DNA from: Synechococcus sp. CC9605
GTDB lineage: Bacteria > Cyanobacteriota > Cyanobacteriia > PCC-6307 > Cyanobiaceae
Assembly: GCF_000012625.1 (NCBI RefSeq)
Contig: NC_007516.1
Span: 682,001 to 746,000 of the forward strand
Length of the DNA stretch: 64,000 nt
Direction of reading: 5' to 3'
The notes beneath the pieces were generated by a model, which had not been told where the DNA came from, ran no database searches, and saw only the letters and a program-made list of their open reading frames with translations. How positions within the stretch are numbered: position 1 is the first letter of the stretch; every line of letters begins with the position of its first letter. Positions 10,226 to 60,721 of the stretch are shown here, one piece after another. The position numbers and the translations under genes are program-made.

Positions 10226-11014
10226 TCAGATTGAAGCTTGCGCCACGATCCCGCTCCACTGCACGGCTTTCACCTGATCCCGTCGCCAGGAATGGAACAG
10301 CTCGGGTTCACTGACGGTGCACAGCGGGCAGTGGGCGATCCGTTGGCTGAGGATTCCCGCGCCCTGGAGTTGCACTCTGGCGGACGTTCGAATGTCCAGG
10401 CGTTGCCGTCCCGGTTGCTCATCCGGAAGCAGGGCCCCGGCCTCGGATAACGAGGCCTCGTCGGGGGTCGAGGCGCTGACGGCCTCCACCACCTCGTCGC
10501 CCACCTGGTAACAGGGTCCGCTGACAGCCGGACCCAGGGCGACGACCAGATCCTCCCGCCGCGCACCCCGCTCCACCAATTGATCCAGGGCCGTGATCAG
10601 GATTCCAGCTGCCACCCCACGCCAACCGGCATGACAGGCCGCGGCATGCCCGGTGCCGGGATCGGCGATCAGAACCGGGGTGCAGTCGGCGCCGCACACC
10701 CAGAGGCTCTGGCCTCCGCGATCACTCACCAGGCCATCGGCCTCAGGCCAGGGATCCTGAACGGCGTCGCTGGCGTTGAGGACGACCCCACTGTGAATCT
10801 GCTGGGGCCGGTGGACGCTGATGCCGGCGCTGACGTACCCCGCCAGTTCATCAGGCCCACGGCCGTGCCAGAGCCGGGTGAAAAAGCCGTGCTCGAACCC
10901 CTGCTCGTGCAGAAGATCGCTCTGGAGGTAATAGCCCCCATAACAACCGATCCAGGTCCATCCCTTCAACGTGTTGAAGCGGCTGTCTGGTCGATCAAAT
11001 GGCCCGTCTTTCAT
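10226..11014 (-). CDS. pgeF: laccase-domain (PgeF/YfiH) purine nucleoside-acting enzyme
   Basis: 262 residues. Members of this family (formerly DUF152, polyphenol-oxidase-like) act on purine nucleosides and have been linked to peptidoglycan editing. Zinc-ligand motifs of the family are visible: ADCTPVLIADPGTGHAAACHAGWRG in the middle (C and two H), and VALGPAVSGPCYQVGDEV. The FFTRLWHGRGPDEL segment near the N-terminus is also typical. Its start is 11 bases downstream of the Tab2-like gene, so the two are probably cotranscribed from the S1-domain gene promoter. Confidence 0.9.
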   Translation of the reverse strand: MKDGPFDRPDSRFNTLKGWTWIGCYGGYYLQSDLLHEQGFEHGFFTRLWHGRGPDELAGYVSAGISVHRPQQIHSGVVLNASDAVQDPWPEADGLVSDRGGQSLWVCGADCTPVLIADPGTGHAAACHAGWRGVAAGILITALDQLVERGARREDLVVALGPAVSGPCYQVGDEVVEAVSASTPDEASLSEAGALLPDEQPGRQRLDIRTSARVQLQGAGILSQRIAHCPLCTVSEPELFHSWRRDQVKAVQWSGIVAQASI

Positions 11015-52896: not shown

Positions 52897-55152
52897 GTGG
52901 AAGGCTTCACACATAAAAAATTTGACCGTCTGTTCGATGGTCTGAAGCCCAGTGAGATCACGGCGGCTCAGATGGTTGACCGTGCGCGCGTGAATGGTGC
53001 TGAACTCACACTCCAGGATCTCAAGGGCGCGATTGACGCCCATCGTCTGCGAGAAGGTGCGATCAGCCTGCGGGATTGGCGCTTGCTGCTTGCCTTGCAG
53101 GTTGGAGATGTAGCTCTTAAAGCAAGGGAGGCTTTTGCCCTTCTGGATCAGGACGGCGACGGTTTGGTTGAACTGAATGCTCTAAAGAGGCTGATCCAGT
53201 TGTTCGAGGTCTCCACCCAGACGTCGGATGCCATCACGATCGAAATCGCGCGGGATGGTTCGGAATATTTTGATCTTCAGCATCTGCTCGACTACCTGCC
53301 GGAGCAATTCGAGTCCCATCCAAGGGCCTTTGTCGGAGCTCATCGGTCGGTGGACGCTCACGCTGCAACGAAGAAGGCGGCGTCCCATGGCAACGGGACT
53401 GCCAAGCACAAGTCCCACATTCTCAAGGGAACCTCTCCGCTGCAGATGCAGATCGGATGGTTTCGCCTGATTCAAGGAGCGGCTTACCGCAGCTTCCGTG
53501 AGAGTTATTCCGCCAATTCCGAAACTCATCTTCGTGCTTACGACCTGCCTTACACGATCTCTGATTTCGTTCGCTTCGTGAATGCGGCTGTTGACCTCTA
53601 CCTCGCACTCGGAATTGTGGAGGACGGTGCAGAAGAGCCCTTCGAAAGCCTACGGACGTCTGTGAACAGGGCGGAGGTTGCCTTGCGGAACCGCATGGCG
53701 AACTGGGACTCCATTCCTCACACGGAGGCGATGCTTGAGGCGGAGGGCAGGATTGAGGAGGAATTGCAGGAACTGGATCATCACCACCAGATCGTGGTTG
53801 TGGTGATTGAGGTGCTCTTAACGGCGGCATTGCATGGTCATCATCCAGATCAGGTCACCCATGAGGATCTGCAGAGCCATGAGCTGAACCGCTTGCGCCA
53901 ACTTGATGATCATCGGGAAGTCGCCGCATCACTGGACCACGACAAACCGACCACGTCCCGTACGTACCACGACACTTGGCAGCGGGTGATCGTTGACGCC
54001 GACGACGAGCGTTATGCCGGTTCAATCATGCCCACGGCCTACTGGTACGACGAGTTCATGCCGTTGCTGCTCCGCGCCAGCTCAGTTCTGAGTCAGGACG
54101 ACATTTCCGCTTGGGATGATGCTGACGATGACGTTCTCAATAGCTGGTTCGCGGAACGTCATGCTGCAGGCGAATTTGATCTTTACGGCCACGCGACTGA
54201 AGAGGCATTCCAGTCCCGTCCCTTGACAATCAAGAGAGAACTCAAACGCGCTTGGGAGCTCACACGTCATTACCTCAATGGTGTTCAGAAACGACGTGAG
54301 CGGGAGGAGTTTGGCCGTGAGTCCGGTTTTTTATGTCAGTACGTCGCGTTTCTCGATCTGCATGTCGGGCGTCACGACGTTGAAGCCAGCGAGATGCGGG
54401 TGAGCTTCCCTTATTACATCGGTCCGGCCACTTGGCGTTTCATCCACACCAGTGCGGAACTGATTGCAGCCCAACCTGCTGAAGAGCAACAGGCTTCGGT
54501 TGATGTGTTCAAAGCCTTCTTCTCTGCTTTGGCCACGATGTACCCATGCCCATACTGTCGTTTCCATCTCAACCGTTATGTGGTGCGCAACCGCGAGGTT
54601 TCGATGTATCCGATCGAGTACCTGCTGCTGGGATCCGCTCAGGCGAGCTCAAACCTTGAAGTGTCTTTACAGGACAAACTGGACAAGGTGATCGATGGGA
54701 GCTCCCTGCGTCTGTTCCTCTGGAAGCTGCACAACACCGTGTCGTCGTCAATCGCGCGTAGTGAGGATTGGTATCACCAGGATTCCGGGGCGATCTATAC
54801 CTCTAGATACTGGCCCAGCCTGGATTCTGAGCTTGAGCGTGCCCACACTCTCGGCATTGACCTGATTCAACGCGATCGCGTTCAGCGCATTTACGGTGTG
54901 GCGAAAAGTGCAGCCCATCTTTCGGTGTTGCGCGATGAACTGCAGGTGTCGCTGCATGCCGATGATATGCAGCAGCAGGAGGTCATTCGCACCAAGGCGG
55001 TTGGAGCTATCGGTGCAGTTGAGGATGCCGTGCTTCAGTCCCGCTTCCTTCATGAGAATTACCGCTACAACCCTGATCTGCAGTTGGAGCCGCCCCATTT
55101 CAGCCCTGCTGAAGAGGTCCTGGCCCGCAGCGGTCAGTTCACAGAGGACTGA
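52897..55152 (+). CDS. large protein with EF-hand-like loop and C-terminal Erv/ALR-like sulfhydryl oxidase domain
   Basis: 751 residues from GTG 52897, the first possible start after an in-frame TGA. Residues 84-95 (DQDGDGLVELNA) form an EF-hand-like loop with a nonstandard Ala at position 12. A long helical middle part follows. Residues about 505-620 resemble the FAD-linked Erv1/ALR fold: WRFIHT (W513 and H517), the redox pair C551-P-Y-C554 after MYP, and the LHN FAD contact at 611-613. No signal peptide is seen. Such domains are rare in bacteria. The function is inferred from motifs only. Confidence 0.72.
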   Translation: MEGFTHKKFDRLFDGLKPSEITAAQMVDRARVNGAELTLQDLKGAIDAHRLREGAISLRDWRLLLALQVGDVALKAREAFALLDQDGDGLVELNALKRLIQLFEVSTQTSDAITIEIARDGSEYFDLQHLLDYLPEQFESHPRAFVGAHRSVDAHAATKKAASHGNGTAKHKSHILKGTSPLQMQIGWFRLIQGAAYRSFRESYSANSETHLRAYDLPYTISDFVRFVNAAVDLYLALGIVEDGAEEPFESLRTSVNRAEVALRNRMANWDSIPHTEAMLEAEGRIEEELQELDHHHQIVVVVIEVLLTAALHGHHPDQVTHEDLQSHELNRLRQLDDHREVAASLDHDKPTTSRTYHDTWQRVIVDADDERYAGSIMPTAYWYDEFMPLLLRASSVLSQDDISAWDDADDDVLNSWFAERHAAGEFDLYGHATEEAFQSRPLTIKRELKRAWELTRHYLNGVQKRREREEFGRESGFLCQYVAFLDLHVGRHDVEASEMRVSFPYYIGPATWRFIHTSAELIAAQPAEEQQASVDVFKAFFSALATMYPCPYCRFHLNRYVVRNREVSMYPIEYLLLGSAQASSNLEVSLQDKLDKVIDGSSLRLFLWKLHNTVSSSIARSEDWYHQDSGAIYTSRYWPSLDSELERAHTLGIDLIQRDRVQRIYGVAKSAAHLSVLRDELQVSLHADDMQQQEVIRTKAVGAIGAVEDAVLQSRFLHENYRYNPDLQLEPPHFSPAEEVLARSGQFTED

Positions 55153-56199: not shown

Positions 56200-56715
56200 A
56201 TGACGCTGACTCGGATTCCAGATCTCAGAGTGAAGAAGGTTCTCTGGGGCACCCTTGTCGTGCTTCGGGTTCTTCTCGTCATGGCTGTTTTGGCCTATGT
56301 CGCCATCGAGTACATCGAATTTGACTCCAACAAAGAGGTCTTGCATCTCACGTTGTTTTCGATGTTTTTTTTGTTATCTAACTTCCTGATTAATGTCGGT
56401 CGGCACAAGGCGGCCATTCAAAACGATGAGCATGCCCAGAGCCTGTTCTGGATGGCGATGTTCGCTCTCTCTGCCGCGATGTTGGAGTTGGTGGATTTGG
56501 CGTTGGATCAGGTTTTGGCGGCTATAGCCGATCCGTCGATGGTGGTCTATTCCAACATATTGGCTGTGGTTGAGTTTTTGATTGGTATTTTTTCAGTATT
56601 GATGGCATATTTCTCGATCGACAGGCTTCTTGTTTTTTTGCGTTCAATCTCCTTCGAGCTTAGATATATCGGCCTGCAAGCAAAAAAAATCCCCCGCCCT
56701 GAGAGCGAGGGATAA
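56200..56715 (+). CDS. hypothetical four-helix membrane protein
   Basis: 171 residues from ATG 56200. Four hydrophobic segments are visible at about residues 20-45, 50-65, 85-105 and 118-145, with charged ends and the loop VGRHKAAIQNDEHAQS. The tail SFELRYIGLQAKKIPRPES is basic and may face the cytosol. No family was recognised. The sequence is AT-richer than the core genes on its left. Confidence 0.7.
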   Translation: MTLTRIPDLRVKKVLWGTLVVLRVLLVMAVLAYVAIEYIEFDSNKEVLHLTLFSMFFLLSNFLINVGRHKAAIQNDEHAQSLFWMAMFALSAAMLELVDLALDQVLAAIADPSMVVYSNILAVVEFLIGIFSVLMAYFSIDRLLVFLRSISFELRYIGLQAKKIPRPESEG

Positions 56716-57049
56716 GGCTGGTACAGACCAAGAACTGCAACCGGTAACTGTCTGACAATCAGACCTTGCGGGAGTAGTCCACGTTTTGAGTGCTGAACTG
56801 CTTTTGGAGCTGTTTTTGGAGTTTGAGTGAGGTTTGAGTAAATGCCTCTTCCTGTCTGACACTTGGCTCAACAAAGACAGATCGCGTCAGACCTGCGTGG
56901 GCGCATAGGCGAGGTTGTTATCCGCTGTAATGGGTTGACCCGGGCGTATAATTTTTCTGTAGCAACCGCTACATGACGTTCACCCCTCAACTCAGGGGCG
57001 CAGATCACCAGGCCAAGGAACGGGGACCTGGATTTCTGAGGAACTAACC
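56716..57049. other. intergenic region with leader of the DUF4278 gene
   Basis: 334 bases. Apart from the TATAAT and hairpins described separately, the region holds only weak minus-strand frames with unlikely composition. No RNA gene was identified. It links the hypothetical membrane protein with the small DUF4278 gene. Confidence 0.4.
56947..57046 (+). promoter_or_regulatory. putative -10 box and structured 5' leader of the DUF4278 gene
   Basis: TATAAT at 56947-56952 is a consensus -10 element. TTGACC at 56935 is only six bases away, so it is not a proper -35. The following transcript would have two short hairpins: CCCCTCAACTCAGGGG and CCAGG...CCTGG. They precede a GAGGAA Shine-Dalgarno about seven bases before the ATG. 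The leader is about 95 bases long. Confidence 0.35.
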
Positions 57050-59806: not shown

Positions 59807-60682
59807 TCAGTGAATAGGGGTGACTTCAATGGGTTGATGCTTAGCGATGAACTCCTCAAGCAGTGACTGAACTGCTTCGACCTCGTCGATTAGGTGAGCT
59901 TTGGCAGCTGGAGCAAATCCGGCTAGACACTGGTCCATCTCTCCCGAGGCAAGGAAGAGGAAAAACTGCTTAACCAGCTTTTGACCCCACTCCGGTTGGG
60001 CAATGAAAGACTCTTCTTTGGCGTCGTCCATGACTTCCAACGACTCATGCGTAGTTAGTGCATGCGTTGGACGTGTCTCTTGAACGTTGGCGCGGCTTGG
60101 TGTCCGAGCCCTCCATTCGTATTCGTCCTTCGGATTCGATCGGCGTAACTCCTCCAGCTCAGCTTGCGTATAGACCTTGTTGTCATCGAGAAGCTCTCGT
60201 CGCACTTGGTCCACAGCGTCATTGCTCATTAGAGACAACTCGTAGAGCTTGGAGACATTCTTGAAGTACTCGTCAAGGAAACGGTTTTGCCTTTCGACCA
60301 GCTCGAGTTCAGTGAAGAACTCCTCAAAACAAACGGTGGAGAGGGGTTGGTTGTGATTCCTTGCGTAGAACTCACCGGCTCCCATCAGCTTGCTTACTTT
60401 TGACTTCTTAAATCCAATTTCTTGAAGCTGCTCACGAATGTGTTTTTTAAACTTGGACCTTTCATAGCGTTCATCCATTGGGACGCTGAATAAGGCTATG
60501 ACTAGCTGTAGACCTGCAGAGGCTGATTCCTTTTCAAGCCTATTGGTTTCGACGTATAGCTTGTGAAGCTGAGCTTCTACTCGTTTTCCTGCTAGTTCAG
60601 CAATAGCTTTGGCGGCTGGAACATAACGATGATCAATACTTCTATCATCATTCTTGGGCGAAATTAAATGATTTAGTTTCAT
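59807..60682 (-). CDS. possible ParB-like / DNA-binding partner of ParA
   Basis: About 291 residues from ATG 60682 (MKLNHLISPKNDDRSIDH); the frame to 60721 is less likely. It is helical and charged with a possible helix-turn-helix at KHIREQLQEIGFKKSKVSKLMG. An acidic middle and a C-terminal domain follow. No classical ParB nuclease-like motif is present. Its placement downstream of a ParA-type ATPase with repeats in between supports a partition role, but that is inference. Confidence 0.5.
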   Translation of the reverse strand: MKLNHLISPKNDDRSIDHRYVPAAKAIAELAGKRVEAQLHKLYVETNRLEKESASAGLQLVIALFSVPMDERYERSKFKKHIREQLQEIGFKKSKVSKLMGAGEFYARNHNQPLSTVCFEEFFTELELVERQNRFLDEYFKNVSKLYELSLMSNDAVDQVRRELLDDNKVYTQAELEELRRSNPKDEYEWRARTPSRANVQETRPTHALTTHESLEVMDDAKEESFIAQPEWGQKLVKQFFLFLASGEMDQCLAGFAPAAKAHLIDEVEAVQSLLEEFIAKHQPIEVTPIH

Positions 60683-60721
60683 GTTGTTGTATAAAAGTTT
60701 CTGCGGAAAACTTTCCACCAC

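Follow-up and report, generated by a model that had tools for sequence, protein, structure and literature searches.

In a 64,000-nucleotide stretch of Synechococcus sp. CC9605 (contig NC_007516.1, positions 682,001 to 746,000 of the forward strand; hereafter the window), a single gene encodes a protein that joins a degenerate calmodulin-like N-terminus and a large, mostly helical domain to a sulfhydryl oxidase domain of the Erv1/ALR type. We consider it reasonably likely that this protein is a soluble, cytosolic, flavin-dependent Erv1/ALR sulfhydryl oxidase fused to a large helical partner and, at its N-terminus, to a calmodulin-like regulatory domain, and that the enzyme was ancestrally regulated by calcium, its sensor having been relaxed in the window copy. 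A preliminary description, drawn from the letters of the window, had placed a protein of 751 residues here; its position, length and strand were verified. The gene starts with a GTG codon directly 3′ of an in-frame stop and ends with TGA.

The Erv1/ALR domain and its helical partner

The Pfam family Evr1_Alr (PF04777) matches the window protein at an E-value of 4e-10; its score of 40.4 bits clears the curated cut-off, which is 27.6. Within the match, W513-x3-H517, C551-P-Y-C554 and L611-H612-N613 follow one another in the order read by the preliminary description, whose proposal of an Erv/ALR-like domain is thus borne out by a significant profile match. All 72 aligned proteins (the window protein and relatives from 71 loci that, among the matches listed, align from window residue 80 or earlier to residue 745 or later) share W513, H517, C551, P552, Y553, C554, H612, N613 and V615; the likeness therefore reaches far beyond chance. 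PF04777 was found at E ≤ 0.01 in each of 43 diverse family members and in none of 14 control genomes, and the genome to which the window belongs has a single match. Searched against PDB sequences, a profile of the family core gave 15 matches at E ≤ 10 (best E 2.3e-5), 13 of which are Erv1, Erv2, ALR or another FAD-linked sulfhydryl oxidase. The closest PDB sequences to the window protein itself were calmodulins (residues 33–107, best 7.9e-5) and Erv1p (residues 508–564, 2.9e-4), and an NCBIfam search of the 751 residues returned no match up to E 1. These sequence comparisons give good support for placing the protein in the Erv1/ALR superfamily, and the Erv-type oxidase domain is real, conserved and probably catalytic.

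The cysteines of the family are sparse. Only the C551 and C554 columns are invariant in the 43 members, and the window protein has three cysteines in total; neither a second (shuttle) pair nor a structural CX16C disulfide was found. Both are common in the Erv1/ALR members that have been studied, and we did not take them as defining. The columns of residues 245 and 441 hold cysteine in 26/43 and 34/43 members, respectively, and another residue in the window protein; these cysteines could act as redox partners in the other family members. The lack of a signal peptide, which the preliminary description had found odd for a disulfide-forming enzyme, extends to the whole sample: in a 19-residue hydropathy scan, which ran from the aligned starts and left the open frame upstream of them unscored, no signal-peptide-like or membrane-like stretch was visible in any of 43 aligned proteins (the window protein and 42 relatives; maximum 1.65). 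The protein is probably located in the cytosol.

The helical domain has no counterpart in the preliminary description. Residues 178–505 match no Pfam family in the window protein and no PDB sequence, and the residues that are invariant there in the 72 proteins include F189, R190, Q193, G194, A196, Y197, R198 and K465–R469. A full-length AlphaFold2 model has a mean predicted local distance difference test (pLDDT) of 76.5 and a predicted template modelling score (pTM) of 0.73; a model of the core alone reaches 78.4 and 0.84. In the Erv region, helices are predicted at 510–524, 528–548, 555–563 and 601–619, with low pLDDT at the CXXC motif, and the predicted fold says little about the putative active site. 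With the full model, the top rows of VIA-align were Erv fragments of human QSOX1 (3lli, Z 10.8, root-mean-square deviation 4.6, 233/251 residues; 3llk, Z 10.2), the 3lli alignment spanning model residues 178 to 731. The QSOX of T. brucei (3qd9) scored Z 9.4, and calmodulin-type chains lay between and below the QSOX rows; the rows also held 5e37 (Z 8.2, mostly over the EF part), a ‘Redox protein from Chlamydomonas reinhardtii’ that we take to be calredoxin. Because chance alone can give helical proteins Z values of this size, we read the QSOX match only as a hint that the helical domain may pack on the Erv domain as it does in QSOX. VIA on the core model yielded nothing above background (QSOX was not among the rows compared). 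An internal Erv duplication was considered and rejected: comparing the Erv part with the helical domain by hhalign yielded a probability under 1%, so a pseudo-Erv half is unsupported by sequence.

One could still suppose that the Erv-like match is due to chance or marks a decayed remnant within a merely structural, helical protein, and the poor model around the CXXC motif, together with the lack of a significant Foldseek relative in the PDB, would fit such a view. We regard it as highly improbable in the face of a profile score above the curated cut-off, motifs invariant across phyla and purifying selection.

A calmodulin-like N-terminus, intact in relatives and decayed in picocyanobacteria

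The calcium-loop-like segment that the preliminary description noticed near the start of the protein is real, but in the window it is sub-threshold and non-canonical. EF-hand_6 matches residues 76–101 with 19.9 bits, below its cut-off of 25; the sub-threshold EF-hand matches in Pfam together span residues 75–111, and the loop itself is non-canonical because alanine replaces glutamate or aspartate at position 12. Its origin becomes apparent in the family at large. The family profile A1 matches calmodulins in the PDB at about 1e-25 and centrin-2 at 4e-28, over about 135 positions, and the four EF-hands of the family align end to end with calmodulin. We counted a loop as canonical when positions 1, 3, 5 and 12 were acidic or polar and position 8 hydrophobic, which could be done for 84 of 88 proteins (those of 87 distinct loci, designated here by L numbers, and the plasmid protein of L114; L054, L068, L078 and L109 lack a usable N-terminus or motif). 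Among 49 filamentous or other cyanobacterial proteins, 45 have four canonical loops and 4 have three; both myxobacterial proteins counted have four. Each of the eight alphaproteobacterial proteins has one or two, and none has four. Of 25 picocyanobacterial proteins, 14 have none and 11 have one. The window protein has no canonical Ca2+ loop and a single near-loop.

The same contrast appears in sequence identity. In 12 chosen filamentous-type proteins the mean pairwise identity of the EF domain is close to that of the core (73% versus 75%); in 7 chosen picocyanobacterial proteins it is 26% versus 58%. Corresponding values for the N-terminal region and the core are 55% versus 80% in 6 proteins of the marine Synechococcus type and 30% versus 52% in 7 alphaproteobacterial proteins. 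The ratio of non-synonymous to synonymous substitution rates (dN/dS) of the window gene against L002 and L003 is 0.09 and 0.08 in the core, a sign of purifying selection, and 0.12 and 0.18 in the EF region, which is thus still constrained; comparisons with the more distant L018, L004 and L005 were saturated at synonymous sites. The loop and identity contrasts therefore indicate that the sensor, and not the core, has been relaxed in the clade of the window protein. On these sequence grounds the EF-hand of the window is the remnant of a complete calmodulin-like domain with four EF-hands, which is intact in relatives and has decayed in the picocyanobacterial lineage; we infer that EF loops were lost rather than gained.

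We propose one mechanism that combines the two ends of the protein. The CXXC motif at residues 551–554, lying beside FAD (flavin adenine dinucleotide), would take electrons from the thiols of partner proteins, its presumed substrates, and FAD would hand them to O2, so that H2O2 and a disulfide result. Ancestrally, and still in filamentous cyanobacteria and myxobacteria, Ca2+ bound to the four EF-hands would turn the oxidase on or off, much as Ca2+ switches the reductant calredoxin. As the Ca2+ ligands have been lost and the core is under strong selection, the window copy probably works without Ca2+ control.

Several observations weigh against a calcium-regulated cytosolic oxidase. The bacterial cytosol is normally reducing, and a net oxidase there needs explaining. 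No invariant second cysteine pair among the 43 members would provide a route from substrate to active site. The full-length model is least confident around the CXXC motif (pLDDT 48–56 at 551–570), Foldseek found no match in the PDB at E ≤ 0.001 with either the full-length or the core-only model, and helical bundles can reach VIA Z values of up to about 13 as background. Finally, the loss of EF loops presumes that the calmodulin-like state is ancestral, on a tree that is midpoint-rooted, and because the EF loop of the window is non-canonical, the evidence for calcium regulation comes solely from relatives.

Alternatively, the protein could be an adaptor in redox or calcium signalling, in which the Erv fold serves as a flavin-binding or thiol-sensing module and the CXXC motif senses oxidants and alters the helical domain without oxidase turnover. 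The strongly conserved motifs of the helical domain, outside the Erv part, would suit an adaptor, as would the absence of invariant shuttle cysteines, the calmodulin-type input domain and the recurrence of MscS-type channel genes nearby (see below). However, W513, H517, H612 and N613 are as invariant as the cysteines in the 72 proteins, a pattern more in keeping with a working oxidase than with a bare thiol sensor, and we hold the adaptor to be rather unlikely.

Bacterial disulfide formation is regarded as a periplasmic process (DsbA/VKOR), and calmodulin-controlled enzymes as mainly eukaryotic. If our reading of a calmodulin-like domain joined to an Erv-type oxidase is true, the protein would tie calcium to thiol oxidation in the bacterial cytosol, and calcium may be a means by which some bacteria control the oxidation of their proteins. 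Because forms with intact and with decayed loops coexist, the family would be a ready-made system for testing bacterial Ca2+ transients. The ‘new redox sensor or oxidase’ of the preliminary description is kept here as a hypothesis.

Distribution, gene neighbourhood and MscS channels

The features of the gene and its product are collected in Table 1.

Table 1. The gene and the regions of its product, in window coordinates
Feature	Position	Strand	Basis or remark
Coding sequence, 751 aa	52897..55152	+	Calmodulin-like, helical and Erv1/ALR domains and a helical tail; loci with relative; core dN/dS
Residues 1–140, degenerate calmodulin-like (four-EF-hand) domain	52897..53316	+	Family profile A1; EF-hand_6 sub-threshold in the window
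Residues 84–95, sole remaining EF loop	53146..53181	+	5/6 key positions; Ala at position 12
Residues 141–177, low-confidence linker	53317..53427	+	Block pLDDT 38–48 at 141–170
Residues 178–505, conserved, mostly helical domain	53428..54411	+	Conservation and model helices; no Pfam match
Residues 511–621, Erv1/ALR sulfhydryl oxidase domain (PF04777)	54427..54759	+	Pfam; family profile against Erv1/Erv2/ALR PDB chains
W513-x3-H517 motif	54433..54447	+	Invariant in 72/72
C551-P-Y-C554, putative redox-active CXXC	54547..54558	+	Invariant in 72/72
H612-N613, second half of the Erv signature	54730..54735	+	Invariant in 72/72
Residues 641–751, C-terminal helical tail	54817..55149	+	Model helices 659–687, 691–715 and 737–745; E740 and R744 invariant in 72/72

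By sequence, the window protein is a member of a family spread over three bacterial phyla and not a lone oddity. The preliminary description had called Erv1/ALR oxidases typical of eukaryotes and large DNA viruses; the domain is indeed best known from eukaryotes, but PF04777 in bacteria is already in print. A pattern-based scan of a species-genome collection (84,980 species), which gives a lower bound, confirmed 81 loci, of which the best 80 were kept and 79 are distinct; at least 79 distinct loci thus carry relatives, 36–91% identical. Among the matches listed, the cyanobacterial ones range from marine Synechococcus and Prochlorococcus to Nostoc, Scytonema and Tychonema, and the others belong to Rhodobacterales and other alphaproteobacteria and to Nannocystis and Enhygromyxa (Nannocystaceae). 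The distribution is patchy: PF04777 was present in 16 of 386 cyanobacterial genomes sampled, and the full protein in 11 of 34 genomes of the genus of the window (its own genome counted in both). In the phylum of the Enhygromyxa genome, 2 of 282 genomes had PF04777, Enhygromyxa itself and one with another architecture; in that of the Salipiger genome, it was 1 of 398, Salipiger itself. A protein of 283 aa from a genome drawn from the Enhygromyxa phylum (L092, 1480–2331, minus strand) carries an apparently dead Erv-like domain: its N-terminus is sulfotransferase-like (PF03567, 25.9 bits against 22), and at its C-terminus Evr1_Alr matches above the cut-off (29.5 against 27.6) but the CXXC motif is missing. 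Among 72,556 plasmid records, one contained a relative, from Gemmobacter (NZ_CP028919.1), which RefSeq names ‘ERV1/ALR-related protein’. The alignment A2 was thinned at 95% identity to 54 of 75 sequences, the window protein included; L063 and L033 lack the trimming motif, and L001, L041 (gene in two open reading frames, ORFs), L079 and L017 (incomplete) were excluded.

A tree of 43 proteins places the two myxobacterial members inside the cyanobacteria, beside a Synechococcaceae bin (100/99), and requires two label changes for the alphaproteobacteria. These placements make transfer between phyla likely, on a tree that is midpoint-rooted and in part built on genome bins, which can be contaminated. 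A phage or viral origin of the gene was rejected: viral-contig scans, which rely on exact peptide patterns that distant kin would escape, and tblastn against 50,697 phage records found no relative. The sole viral lead is structural. Foldseek of the core against predicted viral structures gave one match at E ≤ 0.001, to protein A0A5K0UAY3 of Yasminevirus (E 4.1e-17, TMq 0.57, 736 alignment columns, 21% identity), so that, judging from predicted structures, a giant virus probably encodes a relative of the core. The label ‘Histidine kinase’ given to this protein of 1140 aa in BFVD looks doubtful or applies to another domain.

The window gene stands alone. A gene for a ZIP-type transporter (35.0 bits, just under the cut-off of 35.1) diverges upstream across a gap of 343 bp, and a DUF4079 gene converges downstream. 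For the family, the neighbour set comprised 97 loci minus 10 with identical proteins, that is 87; L060, L064 and L074 stood outside the 97 (overlapping ORF). A conserved operon was rejected on the first neighbour clustering, in which no neighbour was common to most loci and the largest cluster covered 9 of 82 loci, all Nostoc; that clustering omitted L001 and L081–L085 as repeats, and another dropped L001 and L081–L093.

What did recur are genes for MscS-type channels. Of the 87 distinct loci, 13 (L003, L006, L014, L016, L020, L026, L030, L034, L038, L095, L096, L111 and L112) have MscS-family ORFs, 16 in all, no more than 3 kb from the gene; these loci represent 6 of 33 lineages at 85% identity. 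PF00924 was confirmed in 10 of 10 loci tested (L003, L020, L026, L006, L014, L030, L038, L096, L111 and L112) and in a further MscS ORF of L095; those of L016 and L034 and the nearest one of L095 come from the search model alone, and two overlapping MscS ORFs in L095 are possibly one broken gene. A background of 26 PF00924 matches in about 18.7 Mb (six genomes) leads one to expect about 1.15 ORFs in the 829,550 bases within 6 kb, and about 0.44 in the equivalent of 33 lineages. In 8 of the 13 loci the channel gene adjoins the family gene on the same strand, with a gap of at most 222 bp or an overlap, upstream in L003, L095, L096, L111, L112 and L020 and downstream in L026 and L034. In three loci the MscS protein is fused to a cyclic-nucleotide-binding domain (L006, 11640–13178; L030, 4028–5566; L038, 4465–5967). 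In L014 an aquaporin-family (MIP) gene (10242–10901) follows directly downstream on the same strand after 81 bp, with an MscS-type gene on the opposite strand behind it, and L016 has the same cluster (10245–10904).

These arrangements could mean that the protein is a partner of MscS-type channels in osmotic or mechanical stress: an open channel would alter the level of Ca2+ (or of another ion) in the cytosol, to which the calmodulin-Erv protein would respond by making disulfides or H2O2. The excess over expectation, the adjoining same-strand genes, the MIP genes and the fused cyclic-nucleotide-binding domains all speak for such a partnership. However, the recurrence was noticed post hoc, while immediate neighbours were being read singly, and only then counted; some of the hits had gone into building the search model, whereas the density comes from PF00924 and from six genomes, four of which carry the association. 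Other neighbour clusters recur as well, a broader one in 11 lineages and another in 6, equal to MscS; where they were clustered, neighbours with Pfam matches to MarC, metallo-beta-lactamase, acetyl-CoA synthetase, GMC oxidoreductase, GST, subtilase and others occur in fewer lineages (the cluster with subtilase in 4/33, GMC oxidoreductase in 3/33). Moreover, 74 of the 87 loci, the window included, have no MscS neighbour (some flanks are short), nor do the three extra myxobacterial loci L060, L064 and L074; five of the 13 loci represent a single arrangement in one genus; and the picocyanobacteria with MscS nearby already have decayed EF loops. MscS is not known to be a specific Ca2+ channel. The association is a lead, not proof, and a role as channel partner seems doubtful to us.

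A broader and still less probable picture would unite these strands in a calcium-to-disulfide switch. As the oxidising counterpart of calredoxin, a calmodulin-gated Erv-type oxidase in the cytosol would act together with MscS-type channels and convert ion influx or membrane tension into disulfides or H2O2. Such a switch would have spread among cyanobacteria, myxobacteria and alphaproteobacteria, would share its core with a giant-virus protein and would have lost its calcium control in ocean picocyanobacteria.

Elsewhere in the window, a Glutamine-II riboswitch aptamer lies at 56974–57032 on the plus strand (57.9 bits against a gathering score of 33), and the ORFs at 56200–56715 (plus strand, 171 aa) and 59807–60721 (minus strand, 304 aa) have no Pfam match at E ≤ 0.001.

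Comparison with known systems

Erv1, Erv2 and ALR belong to the same sequence family by profile (PF04777) and show W-x3-H, YPC-x2-C and H-N in the same order. In contrast to them, the window protein is much larger, bacterial and without a visible export signal, carries additional calmodulin-like and helical domains, and comes from a bacterial family with no second invariant cysteine pair. In the window, 57 residues separate C554 from H612, a spacing that exceeds that of well-studied Erv1/ALR members, and the HN-x-V-N typical of Erv1/ALR proteins is HN-x-V-S, the second asparagine being replaced by serine. The Yasminevirus protein resembles the core in predicted fold but is larger and belongs to a giant virus.

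QSOX offers a second comparison. When the full model is aligned with structures, its top match extends over almost the entire Erv fragment of QSOX1 (3lli), which would fit a helical domain packed on the Erv domain. However, no thioredoxin family is present in the window protein (Pfam, E ≤ 1) or among the 16 families found in the 43 members (E ≤ 0.01), and hhalign gave no sign, at the level of sequence, that the helical domain contains a duplicated Erv.

The presence of PF04777 in Nostocales, Oscillatoriophycideae, Rhizobiales, Rhodobacterales and others has been listed previously (PMC10598087). We found no functional study of a calmodulin-Erv architecture in a word search of titles and abstract starts in the open-access literature. 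Nor did we find in print the combination of a four-EF-hand calmodulin-like domain, a helical domain of about 330 aa that belongs to no Pfam family, and an Erv core in which no second cysteine pair is invariant. Bacterial calmodulin-like EF-hands fused to NADPH oxidase, nitric oxide synthase (NOS), heme oxygenase, thioredoxin and others have been reported, the NOS and NADPH oxidase fusions in cyanobacteria and deltaproteobacteria, and Ca2+-dependent redox roles were proposed for them (PMC7016017). The words erv1, sulfhydryl and thiol are absent from the main text of that study.

A further comparison is with calredoxin of Chlamydomonas, which consists of four EF-hands and a thioredoxin and for which Ca2+ control of thiol chemistry was shown (PMC4911631). 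Both are fusions of a calmodulin-type domain to a thiol-redox enzyme; calredoxin, however, is a reductant with a thioredoxin fold, whereas the bacterial family carries an Erv-type oxidase domain.

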